64,000 nucleotides of DNA from Bifidobacterium sp. ESL0763 (GTDB taxonomy: Bacteria > Actinomycetota > Actinomycetes > Actinomycetales > Bifidobacteriaceae), in assembly GCF_029433395.1 (NCBI RefSeq), contig NZ_JAQTHW010000002.1:186001-250000 (forward strand). The letters run 5' to 3'. This document shows positions 47,975 to 55,864 of the stretch, in pieces (position 1 is the stretch's first letter; every line of letters begins with the position of its first letter). A program made the translations under genes and the position numbers. A model generated the notes under the pieces. It made no database searches and was not told where the DNA came from. It was given only the letters and a program-made list of their open reading frames with translations.

Positions 47975-48139
47975 TATACTTTCCATTTGTAAACCACAGA
48001 CCGTTGGTTAGGGCCGCAAGGTCCTCGAAGTTTGGTTCGCCAAGCCAGCATAGGTTGAACAAGATGAATGTTCCTTGCAAAAGGGACAGGCCATGAGAAT
48101 GGCGTGATTGTTGCTCTGCCTGTGCGCAGGGCATTTTTT
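47975..48139 (+). promoter_or_regulatory. rplJ promoter and L10-type leader with attenuator
   Basis: A TATACT -10 box (47975-47980) starts a leader of roughly 245 nt. It contains a GGGACAGGCCATGAGAATGG region and, at 48113-48139, a stem GCTCTGC / GCAGGGC followed by ATTTTTTATT, which is a typical intrinsic terminator placed about 95 nt before rplJ. This fits the ribosomal L10 leader type, in which L10(L12)4 binding regulates the rplJL operon. Confidence 0.65.
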
Positions 48140-48232
48140 ATTGGTGGATGCGATTACCGCATCAAACGATATCGCCCGGAACGCCGAAGCGTCCGATCTT
48201 CCCGATCAATGGTCGACTCAGGAAGGAACGCC

Positions 48233-48754
48233 ATGAAAAGGCCCGATAAGGCAAAGGTGATCGAGGAGCTCACGGATCAATTCCGTGACGCCGACGCGGT
48301 CTACCTCACCGAGTACCGCGGGCTTACCGTTCCGCAGATCTCCGATCTGCGCGAAAAGCTAGGCCGCGATACTTCCTACTCAGTGGCTAAGAACACGCTC
48401 GCTCGCATCGCCGCCAAGGAGGCTGGGTACGAGGGCTTCGATGAAGCGCTCTCCGGCCCCTCCGCAATCACCTTCGTGAAGGGTGACTACGTCGAGGCTG
48501 CGAAGGTCCTGCGTGACTTCGCCAAGAAAAACAAGGCCCTCGTCATCAAGGGTGGTTTCGCAGACGGAACCATGTACGATGCCGAAGGCTTCCAGAAGCT
48601 CGCGAGCCTCAAGTCCCGCGACACGCTGCTGGCGGAAATGGCCGGAGACCTCAAGGAATCCATGGCCAAGGCCGCCCGTACCTTCGCCGCGCTGCCCACC
48701 AAGGCCGTGCGTACGATCGACGCGCTGCGCGAAAAGCAGGAGAAGGCCGCCTGA
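48233..48754 (+). CDS. rplJ: 50S ribosomal protein L10
   Basis: The 173-residue protein matches L10 throughout: MKRPDKAKVIEELTDQF, AVYLTEYRGLTVPQISDLR, VAKNTLARIA and the C-terminal LREKQEKAA that binds L12 dimers. It forms the base of the ribosomal stalk. A good AGGAAGGA site precedes the ATG; the frame open upstream overlaps the leader and is not coding. rplL follows after 128 nt, so both belong to the rplJL operon. rplA and rplK are not in this window's upstream neighbourhood. Confidence 0.97.
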   Translation: MKRPDKAKVIEELTDQFRDADAVYLTEYRGLTVPQISDLREKLGRDTSYSVAKNTLARIAAKEAGYEGFDEALSGPSAITFVKGDYVEAAKVLRDFAKKNKALVIKGGFADGTMYDAEGFQKLASLKSRDTLLAEMAGDLKESMAKAARTFAALPTKAVRTIDALREKQEKAA

Positions 48755-48882: not shown

Positions 48883-49266
48883 ATGGCTAAGCTCTCAAGC
48901 GATGAGCTCCTCGACGCGTTCAAGGAAATGACCCTGGTTGAACTCTCCGACTTCGTCAAGAAGTTCGAGGACGAGTTCGATGTCGAAGCCGCCGCTCCGG
49001 CCATGGCCGTTGCCGCCGCTCCGGCCGCCGGCGCTGGCGATGGCGCCGAAGAGAAGAGCGAGTTCGATGTCGTGCTCTCCTCCTTCGGTGACAAGAAGAT
49101 CCAGGTCATCAAGGTCGTCAAGACCCTGACCGGCAAGGGCCTCGCCGACGCCAAGAAGCTGGTTGACGGCGCTCCCGCCACCATCCTCGAGAAGGCCAAG
49201 AAGGACGACGCCGAGAAGGCAAAGTCCCAGCTCGAAGAGGCCGGCGCCACCGTCGAACTCAAGTAG
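48883..49266 (+). CDS. rplL: 50S ribosomal protein L7/L12
   Basis: The 127-residue protein has the N-terminal dimerisation domain ([26 protein letters not shown]), an Ala-rich hinge ([15 protein letters not shown]) and the C-terminal factor-binding domain with [20 protein letters not shown] and [19 protein letters not shown]. It recruits GTPase translation factors. Codon use is strongly biased, as expected for a highly expressed gene. It ends the rplJL transcript before a strong terminator. Confidence 0.98.
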
Positions 49267-49385: not shown

Positions 49386-49559
49386 GGCGCGTAAGGTGGC
49401 AGTGGAAGCACGGCCGATTCGCGCGGACGGCGTCGCAAGCGCCCATATCGTCAGGGCCGTGCGAAAAAGTTGTCAATGTAATGGCGTTGGCGTGACGAGA
49501 ACCCGCAAGGCGTGGCAGAATGGCCATGAGTGCGTACAGGTGACAGGAGGCCAGTGAAA

Positions 49560-51119
49560 GTGGCAGATCAACGAACCGCTGGGCGGTGGGTCATCAAGGT
49601 CAACGGCGGCGTGCAGGTCGGCGTGGGCCCGGGCGAGGACGTCGAGATCGGGCGTCACCCGTTGAGACCGTTGGCCGACGACGGCCACAAGCGCGTCGAG
49701 ATCGTCGATGCCACACGATCGATGTCGAAGCGCCATGCGCTCTTCGCGGTGGGCCAGGATGGCTCGGCCACCCTCGAGGACCGCAACTCCACCAACGGCA
49801 CCTACCTGGTCGGCCAGGACGGCAACCTCACCAGGCTGGCGGCCAAGAAGCCCTTCGCGCTGCAGACCTCGCCGATGAGGATGCAGCTGGGCGACGTGGC
49901 AGTGGACTTCGTGAAGGTCGAGGCCGACGACGGGTTCGGCGACGACGAGCCGGGCAATCCGGTCACCGACCTCTTCGACTATGCCGCCAGCCATGCCGAC
50001 GACGAACCGATGCCCGAGAACATGTCGGTGGACGACATCCTCAACCTGCGTGCCGGCGAGCCCACCACCGCGTTCAAGGCCGCCGACGTGGCCGAGGCCG
50101 CGAAGGCCGGCCAGGACGGCAAGAGGCAGACGCGGGACGGCGGAAACGACGGAACCGAAGCCGGATCCGCGGTTTCCGGCAACGCCAAGGAGGCGGAGAG
50201 CCAGAAGGTGGTCGACAGCATCGCCCTGGACGTCAAGCCCGCCCAAGCCGCGGCCCCGGTCGAGCCACGCGACCTCTTCCAGGACGCCCTCGAGCAGGAG
50301 GCGCAGCCGCAGCAGGCAGTGCAGTCCCAGCAATCCGCGCAGGTCCACCAGCAGGCCGCGCAGGCACCACAGACCTCGCAGGCGGGCATGACCGGCGATG
50401 CCGCGGCTGCGGCCCAGCAGGCGACGCCCTCGGTCTCCCTGCCCGAGCGCCACAACGACGCGGAGCGGCCCCAGGCCTCACAGCCGGCGCGGCAACCCGC
50501 CCAACAGCCCGTGCAAACCACCCAGCCGGTGCAATCCGCGCAGCCGACGCAGAACCAGCAGGTTCAGGCGGCCCAGACCGCGCAGCCGACGCAGGGCCAG
50601 CAGGCTCAGGCTCCGATCAACGCCGACTACCAGCCAGCGGCGCAGGCCCAACGGCAGGATGCCCCGCAAGGCATGTTCAAGCCGATGTACGCCCAGGCGC
50701 CGGCCGGCCAGTCCGGCCAGGTGCGCGAGGACGCGGGCGAACGCAACCGTTTCATGCGGCCCGAGCCCCACAACGATGCGACGCCGCAAGCCGCCAATGC
50801 CAACGCCTTCGAGCCGGCCTTCGAACCCGGATCCGTCTTCGAGAAGGTCTCCAAGGGTGAGTTCGACAAGCCCGACCAGGCGATCGAGGTCGACGGGCTC
50901 AACTCCAACGACGCCAAGGTGACCACCGATTTCGCCCTCCAGTTCGAGATGGCGAAGCACCCCGAGCTTCTGCCTTTCCTGGCGATGAATCCCGGGCTCT
51001 ACGACGATCTGTACGCGTGGCTGGGGTCGCTGGGCAACCAGGACATCGACTCCGCGTTATCTCATAATTCCGGCTACGACGACTACCGGCAAGCGCAAGG
51101 GACGGGAATGCAAGCATGA
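49560..51119 (+). CDS. FHA-domain protein with Gln/Ala-rich middle and leucine-rich-variant C terminus
   Basis: The 519-residue protein has a forkhead-associated domain at about residues 28-90, with GR31-32, SKRH at 56-59 and NSTNG at 76-80, the residues that read phosphothreonine. A long Gln/Ala/Pro-rich, probably disordered region (about 200-400) follows. The C-terminal 60 residues (HPELLPFLAMNPGLYDDLYAWL) match the variant leucine-rich repeat seen on actinobacterial FHA proteins. It probably links Ser/Thr kinase signalling to the pseudo-helicase next door, with which it overlaps by four nt. The GTG used is nine nt after AGGAGG; the GTG at 49554 is an alternative. Confidence 0.85.
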   Translation: MADQRTAGRWVIKVNGGVQVGVGPGEDVEIGRHPLRPLADDGHKRVEIVDATRSMSKRHALFAVGQDGSATLEDRNSTNGTYLVGQDGNLTRLAAKKPFALQTSPMRMQLGDVAVDFVKVEADDGFGDDEPGNPVTDLFDYAASHADDEPMPENMSVDDILNLRAGEPTTAFKAADVAEAAKAGQDGKRQTRDGGNDGTEAGSAVSGNAKEAESQKVVDSIALDVKPAQAAAPVEPRDLFQDALEQEAQPQQAVQSQQSAQVHQQAAQAPQTSQAGMTGDAAAAAQQATPSVSLPERHNDAERPQASQPARQPAQQPVQTTQPVQSAQPTQNQQVQAAQTAQPTQGQQAQAPINADYQPAAQAQRQDAPQGMFKPMYAQAPAGQSGQVREDAGERNRFMRPEPHNDATPQAANANAFEPAFEPGSVFEKVSKGEFDKPDQAIEVDGLNSNDAKVTTDFALQFEMAKHPELLPFLAMNPGLYDDLYAWLGSLGNQDIDSALSHNSGYDDYRQAQGTGMQA

Positions 51120-54100
51120 ACGACAACAGCAACAGCGCCAATGGCAAAAGCGTCAACGGCATCGAGAAGATGACCCAGTGGTATGAGGAATACCGCAAGG
51201 GGCTGAGCCCCTCGCCCCTGCAGGACGTCAGCCAGCTCGCCGCGCAACTCGACCTGACCCACGCCCATCCCTCCGGCATCGCCCAGCTCTTCGCCAGCGG
51301 ACACACCACCCTCGCCTCGCTCTTCCGCGACACCGGCATGCTGCGCGCCGCGGGCCGCAGGCTCGAACGGGTGCTTGACGACAAGGCCGCCAAGACCAGG
51401 ATCTCCGGGGTGGCCGAGCTGTCGATGGTGGTCGGCGTGGCCACGTGGAAGGGCAACGGTGTGCCCGTCCTGCTCTATCCGGTCGATGCGGTCCGCAAGG
51501 CCGGCGGACGCGAGACCGACGCCACCATCCGCTTCACCGGCCACGTGGGCCTGAACCCGGCCTTCGCCACCGCGATGCGCGCCGAGCACGTCGACATCGA
51601 CGAGGCCGCGCTCTTCGACGGCTCCAACTACGAGAGCGGCACCCCCGACACTTCGGCCGTCTTCGCCGCCATCACCGCCCTGGCCCGCCACGAGCTCGCC
51701 GACTTCGACATCGAACGCGACATCGTGCTCGGCTGCTTCATGGACCCGGCCACCAAGATGACCGCCGAGGGCCAGCGGATCATCGACGTCCTCAGGCGTG
51801 GCCAGTCCGGCAACACCATCCTCGAGGCGATGGCCGGCGACGCCAAGGCGGTCGAACGCCTACGGGGCGGCGCGCTGCCGCAGTTCAGCCCCTTCGACGA
51901 CGACCCGCACAACGAGCACGCCGCCGGCGACGTCGACAACGTGATGCGCTACGCCGGCAACCTCGTCTCGCAGGGTCATTCGCTTTTCGTCAACAGCGAC
52001 AGCTCCAACGACACCGCCCTGCAGGCCGCCTCGATCGCCTCGCGCTGCGTGGCCGCCAACCGCTCGGTGCTCTATGTGCCGGCCGTGGCCCAGCAGAAGA
52101 AGCGTTTCGTCAAGCAGATGGACTCTTTCCAGCTCGGCGACCGTGTGCTCGACATGGCCGACCCCGCCGCCACGGCGAACCTCGACAAGCAGCTCATTGC
52201 CGCCGTCGGCTTCCAGCCCGGCGTCTCCACCTCGCGCTTCGACCAGCTCTCCGACGAGCTGGTGGGCGTGCGCTCGCGGCTGACCCGCTACCTGGGCGAC
52301 CTGCACGGCGTGAGCAAGGAATGGGGCGTCTCGGCCTACCAGACCATCCAGAACCTGGCGAGCATCGCCAACATGCCCACCCATCCGGCCACCCGCGTGC
52401 GCCTGGGCAAGGACGCCGCGCGCGCCATCGCCCCGCATATGGACGAGTGGGCGAAGAAGCTGCGCCGCGCCGGCCAGTTCGGCGAGTTCAGCGTGGGCCC
52501 CGAGGACACGGTGTGGTACGGCGCCTCGCTGTTCAGCGAGGAGGAGGCGGTCAGCGCCTACCAGAGCGTCGAGGACCTGCTGCAACGCCTGCTGCCGGCC
52601 ATGCGCGAGGAGGTCGTCTCCACCTCCGAGACCTGCGGGTTCCCGGTGCCGGCCACCGTCCAGGAATGGTGCGGCCACGTCAAGGTCCTGAAGAACCTAC
52701 GCCGCGTGCTCGACGTCTTCCAGCCCGAGATCTTCGAGCGCGACATCAACGCCATGATCGAGGCCTCCAAGCCCAAGGAGCAACGCAAGGCCGAAGGGAC
52801 GAGCATGGGCTTCTGGGAGCGCCGCCGCCACGTCAAGGAGGCCAGGAGTCTGCTGCGCGCCGGCGCCCAGGTCGGCGACCTGCACGAGGCGCTGAAGGTC
52901 GTCTCCAAGCAGGCCGACCAGTGGCGCGCGCTGGTGCCCCACGGCGGCTGGCCCGTGCTGCCCGCCAAGCTCGACGAGATCGTCGAGACGCGCGAGGCGC
53001 TGATGCGCGACGTCACCGCGCTCGACGCCGTGCTCTCCACCACCGTCGAGGGCGGCAACCTGCAGGCCGTTCCGATCGAGCGTCTCGAGAAGAGGCTCAA
53101 GGACCTCTACGCCGACCGTCTGGCCCTCGACACGCTTCCGGGCCGCGCCCGCCTCGAGCGCGAGTTCCGCGGCGCCGGCCTGAGCGAGCTCATCGACGAC
53201 CTGCGCGCCAGGCATGTGGACACGCAGGGCGTGGAGGGCGAGCTGCAGCTGTCGTGGTGGACCACTGTCTTCGAGGACATCGTGCGTTCCTCGGCCATCA
53301 TCTCCAACCAGGACGGTTCCGCGCTGCAGTCGGCCGCCAACCGCTTCGCGCAGGTGGACGCCGAACACGTCGATTCCATCGGCCCCATGATCGGCCAGGA
53401 ATCCATGCGCCGGCTGTGCGACCTGCTCTTCTCGCACACCCAGGAGGCCAACCAGCTGCACACGCTGCTGGCCAGCCACTCCCGTGTGCCGCTGCAACGC
53501 GTGCGCCGCGACCACGGCCAGATCCTCGCCGCGGCCAAGCCCGTCATCGTGGCCACGCCCTCCGCGCTCGTGGTGTTGAGCGATCCGCAGCCCCTCGCCG
53601 ACGTCGTCATCGTCGACGCGGCGGCCCACATGCCCTCGCTCTCCCTGCTGGCCATTCTCAGCCGCGCCCGGCAGGTCGTGGTGCTGGCCCACCGCGACAC
53701 GGTGACCTCGCCGGCGGTGCGCACGCTGATCGACATCCTTCCCGAGGTTGACATCGAACCGCAGCCGGTGCGCCGCGACCCGCGTCTGGCCCTCTTCCTC
53801 TCCCAGCATGGCTACGGCCGCATCCGCCGCGACGTGGCCACCGAGGCGATGCAGGGCGCCGTGAGCTTCCACCGCGTCAAGGCCAACGGCGTGCCCGTGC
53901 TCTCGACCGGACTGGTGGAGAGCAGCCAGCAGGAGATCGACGAGGTGATCGCCACCATCAAGCGCCGCGCCAAGGGCTTCAGCGTCATCCCCACCGACTA
54001 CCTGCTTGTGGTCGTCACCCTCACCTCCGTCTTCCGCACCAGGCTGGGCGCCGAGCTCAAGTCCCTGTCGCTCAAGGACGAGTCCATGGCCCGCTTCCTG

Positions 54101-54751
54101 CGCCACGTGCGCCTGATCGGCGTCGACGAGGTCGCCGGCTGCAAGGCCACCGACGTCATCCTCTCGCTGTGCTTCGCCAAGACCGCTCACGGCCGCCTGC
54201 TCCAGCAGTTCGGCTCGCTGGAGGGCGAGGGCGGCGACGGCAAGCTGCTCGACGCCCTGGCCCTGGCCGAGCGCAACCTCGACATCGTCTCGGCCTTCGG
54301 CTCCTCGGACATGGAGGACGACCGCCTGCACCAGTCCGGTCCGAAGCTGCTCAAGGTGGTGCTTCAGTGGGCCGAGAAGCTGGGTCGCCAGCTCGTCCGT
54401 CCGTCGGTCAAGGCCGATTGCGACAACGTGCTCTTCAACGATCTGGCCCGCCGTATCAAGGCCCGTGGGCTCAAGGTCGCCGTCGACTACGGCTTCGACG
54501 GTGGCGGCATGCGCATCCCGCTGGTCGTCGGCCTCAAGGACAAGCCCTTCTCGCTGGCGGTGCTGAGCGACGACGCCGCCTTCATGGGCGTGCAGTCCAC
54601 CCGTAAGCGCCACCGCGTCCTCGCCCACCAGCTCGAAAGCCTCGGCTGGTCGGTCATGGACGTCTGGAGCGTCGGCGCCTTCGTCAATCCCGACAAGGAA
54701 GTGGACCGCGTCGTCTCGCAGATCGGGGAGATCTACCGGGAGGTGCGTTGA
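51116..54751 (+). CDS. DUF4011-type SF1 helicase/REase-fold homologue with degenerate active sites
   Basis: The 1211-residue protein follows the layout of large DUF4011 helicases: an N-terminal domain (GVPVLLYPVDAVR ... HVGLNPAFATAMR), a split helicase core, and a C-terminal REase-fold domain (about 1120-1205, ending LESLGWSVMDVWSVGAFVNP). By eye the expected Walker A loop is replaced by VNSDSSNDT (about 292-300), with no GK(S/T). The DEx box is VDAAA (about 831-836). In the nuclease domain the usual Asp and Glu positions read IPLVV and VLSDD. The reading frame is intact, so it is probably a retained non-catalytic scaffold or DNA-binding protein. It overlaps the FHA gene by ATGA. Confidence 0.75.
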   Translation: MNDNSNSANGKSVNGIEKMTQWYEEYRKGLSPSPLQDVSQLAAQLDLTHAHPSGIAQLFASGHTTLASLFRDTGMLRAAGRRLERVLDDKAAKTRISGVAELSMVVGVATWKGNGVPVLLYPVDAVRKAGGRETDATIRFTGHVGLNPAFATAMRAEHVDIDEAALFDGSNYESGTPDTSAVFAAITALARHELADFDIERDIVLGCFMDPATKMTAEGQRIIDVLRRGQSGNTILEAMAGDAKAVERLRGGALPQFSPFDDDPHNEHAAGDVDNVMRYAGNLVSQGHSLFVNSDSSNDTALQAASIASRCVAANRSVLYVPAVAQQKKRFVKQMDSFQLGDRVLDMADPAATANLDKQLIAAVGFQPGVSTSRFDQLSDELVGVRSRLTRYLGDLHGVSKEWGVSAYQTIQNLASIANMPTHPATRVRLGKDAARAIAPHMDEWAKKLRRAGQFGEFSVGPEDTVWYGASLFSEEEAVSAYQSVEDLLQRLLPAMREEVVSTSETCGFPVPATVQEWCGHVKVLKNLRRVLDVFQPEIFERDINAMIEASKPKEQRKAEGTSMGFWERRRHVKEARSLLRAGAQVGDLHEALKVVSKQADQWRALVPHGGWPVLPAKLDEIVETREALMRDVTALDAVLSTTVEGGNLQAVPIERLEKRLKDLYADRLALDTLPGRARLEREFRGAGLSELIDDLRARHVDTQGVEGELQLSWWTTVFEDIVRSSAIISNQDGSALQSAANRFAQVDAEHVDSIGPMIGQESMRRLCDLLFSHTQEANQLHTLLASHSRVPLQRVRRDHGQILAAAKPVIVATPSALVVLSDPQPLADVVIVDAAAHMPSLSLLAILSRARQVVVLAHRDTVTSPAVRTLIDILPEVDIEPQPVRRDPRLALFLSQHGYGRIRRDVATEAMQGAVSFHRVKANGVPVLSTGLVESSQQEIDEVIATIKRRAKGFSVIPTDYLLVVVTLTSVFRTRLGAELKSLSLKDESMARFLRHVRLIGVDEVAGCKATDVILSLCFAKTAHGRLLQQFGSLEGEGGDGKLLDALALAERNLDIVSAFGSSDMEDDRLHQSGPKLLKVVLQWAEKLGRQLVRPSVKADCDNVLFNDLARRIKARGLKVAVDYGFDGGGMRIPLVVGLKDKPFSLAVLSDDAAFMGVQSTRKRHRVLAHQLESLGWSVMDVWSVGAFVNPDKEVDRVVSQIGEIYREVR

Positions 54752-54972
54752 TGGGCGGCTACGACCCGACCCGTCGCTCCGCCCGCCGTCACCATCGCGT
54801 CACGCGCGAGGGCTCCGAGCGTTTCGACGTCGACGAGGCCGACCTCGGCCTGACCGGGGTCGAGGAGTCGGGCGTCGAAGGCTCCAAGGACGCCAGAAGC
54901 CGTGACGACGACGCCCGCATCCTGCGCGAGCTGCCGCCGCACTGGGGCATCTTCAGCGAGCGGGGCGCCTAG
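54751..54972 (+). CDS. Small acidic protein, third gene of the FHA operon
   Basis: The 73-residue protein starts with a basic MGGYDPTRRSARRHHR stretch, continues with the acidic FDVDEADLGLTGVEESG and DARSRDDDARI, and ends LRELPPHWGIFSERGA. The ATG overlaps the pseudo-helicase stop codon by one nt (TGATG) behind GGGAGG, so it is translationally coupled. I do not recognise the family, but the conserved-looking C terminus and the coupling argue that it is real and works with its two operon partners. Confidence 0.75.
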   Translation: MGGYDPTRRSARRHHRVTREGSERFDVDEADLGLTGVEESGVEGSKDARSRDDDARILRELPPHWGIFSERGA

Positions 54973-55093: not shown

Positions 55094-55864
55094 CTATGTG
55101 GTCACCATGATCGGCGCTCCTTCCCTCGCGGCGATGACGTTCGCTGCCTCCTGTGGCCGCAGGGCCACCTGGATGTGCGTCGTCGCCCCGGCGTCGCGCT
55201 CCGGCTCGTCGTGGCCGGCCTTGATGACGAGCGCGTCCCGTGCCAGCGTGCAGGCGTCGTCCTGGTCTTCCGCGGGGTTTCCGCCGTTCTTTTCGCTGTC
55301 GTCATTGCCATCTTGTGAATCGGCCGAATCGGTTTGTGGGTCGGTCTGGCCGTCCGCTTCCGGCCGCTCGGCCGGCATCCCCTCGCCGCAGACTCCCGAC
55401 GTCACCAGCGAGACCCGCGAGCCTGGCAGCAGCGAGGAGCCCGAGCTCACCACGGCGACGTCGATTACGGTCATCCCCTTGGCGGGTACGGGGGAGGCCC
55501 GGGCCATCGGGCGGGTGAGGATGTCGCCGGCGGCGATGTCGACCTGCGCGACCATGCCGCTGGCCTGGCCGGGGGAGGAGAACGCGGAGGCGAGCGGCGG
55601 ACCCTGCGCCATCCGCACGATCTCGATGTCGCGTTCACGGATGGTGCTGCCCCGGGCGATGGCGCGCGCGGCAGTGGCCACCGGCCTGCTCGCCACCATG
55701 CCCGCCATCGCCTGCAGGGCGAGGAACACGGCGAGGCCCGCGCACAGTGCCATCGCCAGCGAGCGGATCGTCCGTGTGCGCCGGCGCTGTTGGAGGGTGG
55801 GCTGGCGGGATCCGGGCCGGCCCACCGCTTTGCTGCTATGAAAAAAGGTCATCATGATTGCCAT
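55094..55864 (-). CDS. SAF-domain (CpaB/RcpC-like) protein
   Basis: The 256-residue protein has one N-terminal membrane segment (SLAMALCAGLAVFLALQAMAG, about residues 35-55) followed by a SAF domain (ARAIARGSTIRERDIEIVRM, with GDILTRPMA). Its C-terminal part has an Asp/Gln-rich insert and VQVALRPQEAANVIAAREG, as in RcpC/CpaB. CpaB proteins help assemble Flp/Tad pili, but no tad gene is nearby. Its position beside fmdB and the cyclo-ligase gene recalls the SAF-domain gene of that cluster in other actinobacteria. Ribosome-site support for the start is weak; two more in-frame ATGs follow within four codons. Confidence 0.78.
   Translation of the reverse strand: MAIMMTFFHSSKAVGRPGSRQPTLQQRRRTRTIRSLAMALCAGLAVFLALQAMAGMVASRPVATAARAIARGSTIRERDIEIVRMAQGPPLASAFSSPGQASGMVAQVDIAAGDILTRPMARASPVPAKGMTVIDVAVVSSGSSLLPGSRVSLVTSGVCGEGMPAERPEADGQTDPQTDSADSQDGNDDSEKNGGNPAEDQDDACTLARDALVIKAGHDEPERDAGATTHIQVALRPQEAANVIAAREGAPIMVTT

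Follow-up and report, generated by a model that had tools for sequence, protein, structure and literature searches.

The 64,000-nucleotide stretch of the Bifidobacterium sp. ESL0763 genome analysed here (the window; contig NZ_JAQTHW010000002.1, positions 186,001 to 250,000) contains a gene for a 1211-amino-acid relative of superfamily 1 (SF1) helicases that ends in a nuclease-fold domain, and in which key residues of both parts have been replaced. We consider it probable that this protein, and its Bifidobacteriaceae counterparts, act as a non-catalytic scaffold, which is predicted to be recruited by the forkhead-associated (FHA) domain protein encoded immediately upstream. Judging from its sequence, catalysis of the known SF1-helicase or PD-(D/E)XK type is not expected of the window protein. 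We describe it as a pseudohelicase-nuclease of the actinobacterial core gene set, accompanied by an FHA protein and by a conserved small protein. Our literature search found no paper on the pseudohelicase protein that was recognisable by title or abstract.

Degenerate motifs in an intact helicase-nuclease fold

The gene is an unbroken open reading frame (ORF) in a genome of 1.95 Mb, and the closest database protein (from Bifidobacterium sp. ESL0790) is 89% identical to its product. Motif columns were set by alignment with the intact paralogue L060 and with intact relatives from the same order. At the columns where an active SF1 helicase carries GK[ST], DE, the motif III Gln and the motif VI Arg, the window protein has T300 (the Walker lysine column), A835, T862 and L1050, and the R-A/S-R/K of motif VI has become L1050 A1051 E1052. 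In the nuclease fold, the catalytic Asp and Glu of PD-(D/E)XK enzymes are replaced by P1135 and L1150. The rest of the window protein contained no [AG]xxxxGK[ST] loop, and such a string occurred in only 2 of 239 family sequences, away from the Walker site. An earlier sequence-only reading of the window had placed the gene and its motif letters correctly, and its statement that all catalytic motifs were lost holds in that every motif is broken; however, D834 (the Walker B Asp), G1008 and the nuclease residue D1152 are still present, and E1150 is kept in 8/239 sequences of the family.

The domain plan of a DUF4011 helicase with a C-terminal REase domain, also proposed in that reading, was recovered in part. 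REase_MTES_1575 (PF18741) was the sole Pfam model whose cut-off the protein passed (41 bits against 38.2), and a confident structure prediction kept the Upf1-like fold, in the SF1B arrangement of Upf1 and IGHMBP2, but at E values up to 1 Pfam DUF4011 (presumably PF13195) did not match the window protein. Many of its intact relatives carry DUF4011 among their precomputed domains. The NCBIfam models ProA (NF058533; 159.2 bits, best over residues 930 to 1208) and Hhe (46 bits) fell short of their cut-offs of 1500 and 2000, and PDC-S37 of PADLOC matched at 4.8e-48. The REase part is predicted, from VIA-align and Pfam, to have a Vsr-like fold; Foldseek alone returned no match below E 0.001 for this part. 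Searching solved structures with the single window sequence gave nothing useful, and a profile search gave weak matches to Smubp-2 and Dna2.

Family-wide substitutions in a gene under purifying selection

We examined 239 Bifidobacteriaceae sequences (138 from loci and 101 database proteins, after removal of those identical over the C-terminal 1100 residues), many of which were assigned to the family by at least 61% identity to the window protein. Position 300 was never Lys (T in 149, S in 71, A in 12, G in 5 and N in 2) and position 835 was never Glu, while D859 of motif III survived in 14/239. The residues of the Walker loop vary freely between species. Nearly fixed, by comparison, are D834, D1152 (239/239) and the new residues P1135 (238/239), D1153, M1157 and S1161. 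Among 28 motif positions at least 90% conserved in 116 relatives that keep the Walker lysine, the Bifidobacteriaceae retain 3 at that level and have 5 fixed differently, and of the 113 central helical insert positions that are conserved among intact relatives, 45 have been kept.

The median pairwise ratio of nonsynonymous to synonymous substitution (dN/dS, NG86) was 0.060 and the highest 0.287, in the 173 of 233 pairs with dS of 0.1 to 1.2, these pairs not being independent of one another; the REase domain alone had a median of 0.045 (172 pairs). For the nearest relative of the window gene, dN was 0.064 and dS 0.392. The gene thus shows neither the frame decay nor the relaxed selection of a pseudogene, and its helicase ancestry, broken motifs and intact, selected reading frame are those of a pseudohelicase. 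Because the motif changes recur throughout the family, in a gene maintained by purifying selection, they go beyond chance. The proposals that residues for both activities had been lost without decay, and that orthologues share the substitutions under purifying selection, are therefore borne out.

The phenomenon is broader and older than the sequence-only reading had stated, and the gene is widespread. It was matched in 101/101 searched genomes of the genus and in 143/151 genomes of the family (128/130 of the near-complete ones); among the eight genomes without a match, six are drafts of 57 to 85% completeness and two are near-complete (G107, 99%; G152, 95% and 0.6 Mb). Genus g13, with genomes of 0.6 to 0.9 Mb, has it in 6/7, one of these as a fragment. 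Three extremely diverged copies (L042, L043 and L044; 21 to 23% identity in the alignment) have neither the FHA partner nor the small ORF described below. At E 0.001 the family profile matched 243/248 genomes of the GTDB order, many far more strongly, and 30/158 of a class-wide sample, of which 11 belong to the same order and 19 lie outside it (13/19 over most of the length); since this threshold is permissive, weak order- and class-wide matches may be other DUF4011 helicases. Re-searching 30 genomes, chosen mostly for weaker or unlisted matches, gave one main place in each, some split over contigs. In addition to the orthologue, an intact second paralogue of about 1608 amino acids is present in 2/101 genus genomes (L060:1309-6132 in G062 and L061:1492-6297 in G045). 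L060 has all motifs and matches PDC-S37 from end to end at 1409 bits (ProA at 1218 bits, below cut-off); this paralogue is a candidate active defence gene.

An FHA protein upstream and a small PPHW protein downstream

The stop codon of the FHA gene and the start of the pseudohelicase gene share ATGA (51116-51119), and in 80/80 named loci an FHA partner precedes the pseudohelicase gene on the same strand, in agreement with the translationally coupled operon described from the sequence alone. Its own start is uncertain (GTG at 49530, 49554 or 49560, with AGGAGG at 49545-49550). The partner was present in 175/180 fetched family loci, the five without it being L042 to L044 and two paralogue loci. 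In 91 partner sequences, G41 and R42 were conserved in 90, and S66, H69, N89 and G90 in all 91; we take GR, SxxH and NG to be the phosphothreonine-binding residues of FHA domains, and the partner is on this basis predicted to be a phosphothreonine reader. A strong partner match (E 4e-20 or better) was found in 47/61 family genomes, and the 14 others were the 8 without the target and 6 with a fragment or very diverged copy of it; G107 lacks both. This co-loss supports a functional pair. Four matches of the partner profile outside the family came from loci found by an LRV_2 search and covered the C-terminal or linker part. The FHA partner seems to be a Bifidobacteriaceae addition, none having turned up around the copies sampled in other families. 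Elsewhere in the window's genome (G000:C2, about 1388100-1389200), an LRV_2 match on the forward strand adjoins an FHA match on the reverse strand with an internal stop. Our literature search turned up no paper that brings the words Bifidobacterium, forkhead-associated and phosphothreonine together.

The older partner seems to be a small protein that the earlier reading did not mention. An ORF with PPH[WHFY] near its end was found near the stop codon in 132/138 Bifidobacteriaceae loci and 37/47 others, compared with 0/185 on the reverse strand and 1/185 in shuffled sequence; it started at -1 in 90/169 loci and at +2 in 36/169, and a slightly looser pattern found it in 7 of 15 further loci. The window's own PPHW protein has no Pfam match up to E 1. 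Because this ORF also follows the intact L207, L236, L246, L250 and L238, it seems to be older than the loss of catalysis. The PPHW family has a C-terminal tail of the RERPPHW type, preceded in several families by DDxDxGWG.

Intact relatives and the history of motif loss

We surveyed motif states in 85 aligned rows, which include the window protein, L060 and the truncated genes L251 and L255 (whose later motifs are gaps) and exclude six weak class-level rows (L283 to L288). The Walker lysine was present in 9/85 rows, all of which keep the Walker B DE and the motif VI Arg, and eight of which retain all three nuclease acids (D, E and D). None of the 76 rows without the lysine keeps DE. Six of them (L201, L203, L205, L209, L257 and L266) keep the nuclease set, which suggests that ATPase loss came first. 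The lysine-positive rows are the paralogue L060, L269 from outside the order, and seven rows from families f4 and f17, the nearest named relatives of f17 being Dermacoccaceae and Dermatophilaceae proteins; among 120 listed relatives of one f17 row, GK[ST] was found in 114 by pattern and the lysine in 116 by alignment. Orthologues with active motifs would have spoken against the sequence-only reading: none of the 239 Bifidobacteriaceae sequences keeps the Walker lysine, whereas the distant f17 and f4 rows keep full motifs, and it therefore looks as if an ancestral enzyme had turned into a pseudoenzyme.

A quick, long-branched tree of 76 rows was built with the motif columns omitted (15 rows excluded: L283 to L288, the two truncated genes and seven near-duplicates). 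The Walker lysine state changed at least four times on this tree, and a 55-row clade without it had SH-aLRT support of 100, while the lysine-positive rows clustered near the root and in one clade. Decay of the loop is graded, from normal-looking loops that differ at the lysine (PPGTGATQ, PPGTGQTQ and APGTGRTQ) to the rewritten loop of the Bifidobacteriaceae. As the outgroup and the complete motif sets of the lysine-positive rows indicate loss as the direction of change, the ancestor was probably an active helicase-nuclease, several descendant lineages of which would have lost the lysine. The finding of MscL beside both the intact L228 and the inactive L217 and L219 supports the orthology of the two forms; it also lies convergently, at most 430 bases downstream, in 10/80 named Bifidobacterium-group loci. 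Rows L216 and L219, from other families, have an extra C-terminal stretch beyond the REase domain.

A scaffold model and its alternatives

We favour a scaffold with a dispensable enzymatic step because the gene is core and selected, its fold is intact, its Walker loop is changing and its small partner is long-standing. The scaffold would hold either nucleic acid or a partner protein in a clamp, and the FHA protein would recruit it by reading phosphothreonine, through which its function would be coupled to Ser/Thr-kinase signalling. The remaining function would be binding, by analogy with the PriA protein of Deinococcus, and the PPHW protein may be an ancestral subunit or a peptide ligand. A retained structural or signalling role, as had been suggested from the sequence, is what we infer as well. 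The process that is served may be nucleic-acid maintenance, a ribosome-linked process or defence; the rplJ-rplL neighbourhood and a RAP-like match hint at RNA, and the ProA relatives hint at phage or DNA.

More tentatively, and as a possibility rather than an expectation, the whole order may keep a core helicase-nuclease mainly for its shape. Several lineages would then have lost the Walker lysine together with the Walker B glutamate and, in most cases, with the acidic residues of the nuclease as well. In the Bifidobacteriaceae, this Upf1-like/Vsr-like clamp would have been wired to Ser/Thr phosphorylation through the FHA protein, with the PPHW protein as an ancient companion, and the hollow nuclease domain might now be a binder of RNA or DNA in the manner of RAP-like domains.

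Several observations weigh against the scaffold model. Contact between the FHA protein and the helicase relative is deduced from gene order and co-loss, and the genomes with neither gene are mostly incomplete drafts. The partner profile found no FHA partner in 19 stretches (9 to 16 kb) and shorter loci from other families, a search that a distant FHA domain could escape. The PPHW ORF is missing in 10/47 extra-family and 8/15 further loci, including those of the intact L243, L248 and L269. A conserved Thr of the PPHW protein was considered as a required FHA ligand and rejected, as it is Thr in 83/132 sequences and Ser in the window. ATP may be bound in a Walker-less mode, and since no more than 45/113 insert positions are retained, nucleic-acid binding may have changed too. 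Finally, 6/7 intact same-order rows are from one family (f17), so that the case for ancestral activity leans on the quick, long-branched tree.

The alternative that survives best, although we think it unlikely, is that the protein still serves anti-phage defence, as a domesticated relative of ProA, PDC-S37 and Hhe. It would then detect nucleic acid or proteins of phages and, in place of cutting, pass a signal on by way of the FHA protein. Its nearest named families are indeed anti-phage systems, and the intact paralogue L060 matches PDC-S37 over its whole length. Defence genes usually come and go, however, and the pseudohelicase gene is a core gene located downstream of rplJ-rplL in 75-76/80 loci and kept in five of the seven reduced g13 genomes (with a fragment in a sixth); moreover, no recognised defence family was found by Pfam among 19 neighbouring ORFs, PADLOC having covered the target and FHA partner only.

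Still less likely is that the intact forms from the same order are defence genes acquired independently rather than orthologues, in which case no switch from enzyme to pseudoenzyme took place within this gene. Related defence helicases move horizontally, and the placement of the lysine-positive rows on the tree, described above, would fit such acquisition, but the single main place in all 30 re-searched genomes, the PPHW ORF after intact and inactive forms alike, and the shared MscL neighbour argue against it.

We consider it quite improbable that ATP hydrolysis or cutting persists by means of residues in a new arrangement, such as the TDD..FM and S.R..R positions that are fixed in the REase domain. 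The near-fixed D834, D1152, P1135, D1153, M1157 and S1161 could mark a new site, but K300, E835, Q862, Q1007, R1050 and D1135 are replaced in all or nearly all sequences and E1150 in 231/239, the Walker loop varies, and PMC4504706 reports that a single K-to-R change abolished the ATPase of E. coli PriA. That the gene is a drifting, dispensable relic heading for loss is very unlikely, since its freely varying Walker loop, the 8/151 family genomes without a match and the few very diverged copies are set against its low dN/dS, its presence in every genus genome searched, its many fixed central residues and the incompleteness of six of the eight genomes that lack it.

Genomic neighbourhood

The features of the locus are listed in Table 1. 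Close to rplJ-rplL, the second half of an ORF at 56341-57918 matches GNAT acetyltransferases in Pfam, and the ORF also matches models of the acetyltransferases of ribosomal proteins S5 and L7/L12, far below cut-off.

Table 1. Features of the pseudohelicase locus, in window coordinates.
Feature	Coordinates	Strand	Remarks
Pseudohelicase-nuclease gene, 1211 amino acids	51116..54751	+	Intact ORF; ProA below and PF18741 above cut-off; Upf1-like predicted fold
N-terminal DUF4011-like region, residues 44-260	51245..51895	+	Alignment with intact relatives; Pfam silent
Degenerate Walker A, residues 294-301 (SDSSNDTA)	51995..52018	+	GPPGTGKS in L060 and L243; K in 0/239 Bifidobacteriaceae
Degenerate Walker B/DEx box, residues 834-837 (DAAA)	53615..53626	+	DEAS in intact relatives; D in 236/239, E in 0/239
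Degenerate motif III, residues 858-864	53687..53707	+	GDxxQ to AHxxT (A858, H859, T862)
Degenerate motif V, residues 1006-1010	54131..54145	+	VQGDE to VAGCK (A1007, G1008, C1009, K1010)
Degenerate motif VI (arginine finger), residues 1048-1053	54257..54274	+	R1050 to L or V in 232/239
REase_MTES_1575 nuclease-fold domain, residues 1109-1203	54440..54724	+	D1135 to P, E1150 to L, D1152 kept
FHA domain, Gln/Ala-rich linker, LRV_2 domain protein	49530..51119	+	Pfam FHA 2.5e-7, LRV_2 1.7e-10
PPHW protein, 73 amino acids, basic/acidic, ending RILRELPPHWGIFSERGA	54751..54972	+	ATG overlaps pseudohelicase stop codon
rplJ (ribosomal protein L10)	48068..48754	+	Pfam; upstream, same strand, in 75/80 named loci
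rplL (ribosomal protein L7/L12)	48883..49266	+	Pfam; upstream, same strand, in 76/80 named loci
Convergent SAF-domain protein	55094..55864	-	Pfam SAF 3.7e-11; match at most 2 kb downstream in 68/80 named loci

Significance and comparison with known systems

Helicases are annotated by their motifs, and in public records the orthologues of this gene carry the name 'helicase'. If a pseudoenzyme is indeed kept across the order, including gut bifidobacteria, it would be a natural experiment in which what a helicase-nuclease does as an enzyme is separated from what it does as architecture, because related bacteria have intact and inactive versions, and the small partner frequently accompanies both. 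The FHA-pseudohelicase pair is also a defined candidate for Ser/Thr signalling in bifidobacteria. PMC5514069, which bears on essentiality in B. breve UCC2003, contains neither 'helicase' nor 'FHA' in its main text.

The closest homologues are the ProA, PDC-S37 and Hhe anti-phage DUF4011 helicase-nucleases (NF058533, NF042953; PDLC05009, PDLC02194), which share the motif columns and the C-terminal nuclease-fold domain and match best over the C-terminal third; unlike them, the window protein scores 159 of the 1500 bits required, has all its catalytic motifs broken, and is encoded by a core gene with FHA and PPHW partners. In PMC10250203, a DUF4011 core gene is described as flanking a Pseudomonas defence hotspot. 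The DUF4011-AAA-MTES_1575 proteins of Knoellia, Phycicoccus, Pedococcus, Flexivirga and Luteipulveratus (Dermatophilaceae and Dermacoccaceae) are relatives of the intact f17 rows and resemble our system in the PPHW neighbour, which five of the seven tested intact rows from the order possess, but nearly all keep the Walker loop and lysine that the window protein has lost (114/120 and 116/120, as given above). RAP domains (e.g. FASTKD4, 9gek) are also among the closest known systems.

Among pseudohelicases, the yeast Utp25 protein likewise keeps a helicase fold whose motifs are dispensable, according to PMC9539457, but it is a eukaryotic DEAD-box relative that acts in ribosome assembly. A bacterial precedent is PriA. 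The available portion of PMC4504706 reports that D. radiodurans PriA has lost ATPase activity and unwinding and has kept DNA and DnaB binding, and that its Walker motifs are changed across the Deinococcus-Thermus phylum. As in the Bifidobacteriaceae, a core helicase there has undergone clade-wide Walker loss while binding and partner roles remain; PriA differs in being primosomal, in belonging to another subfamily and in having no FHA partner described in that portion, and the loss of activity, which was measured in PriA, is predicted for the protein described here.

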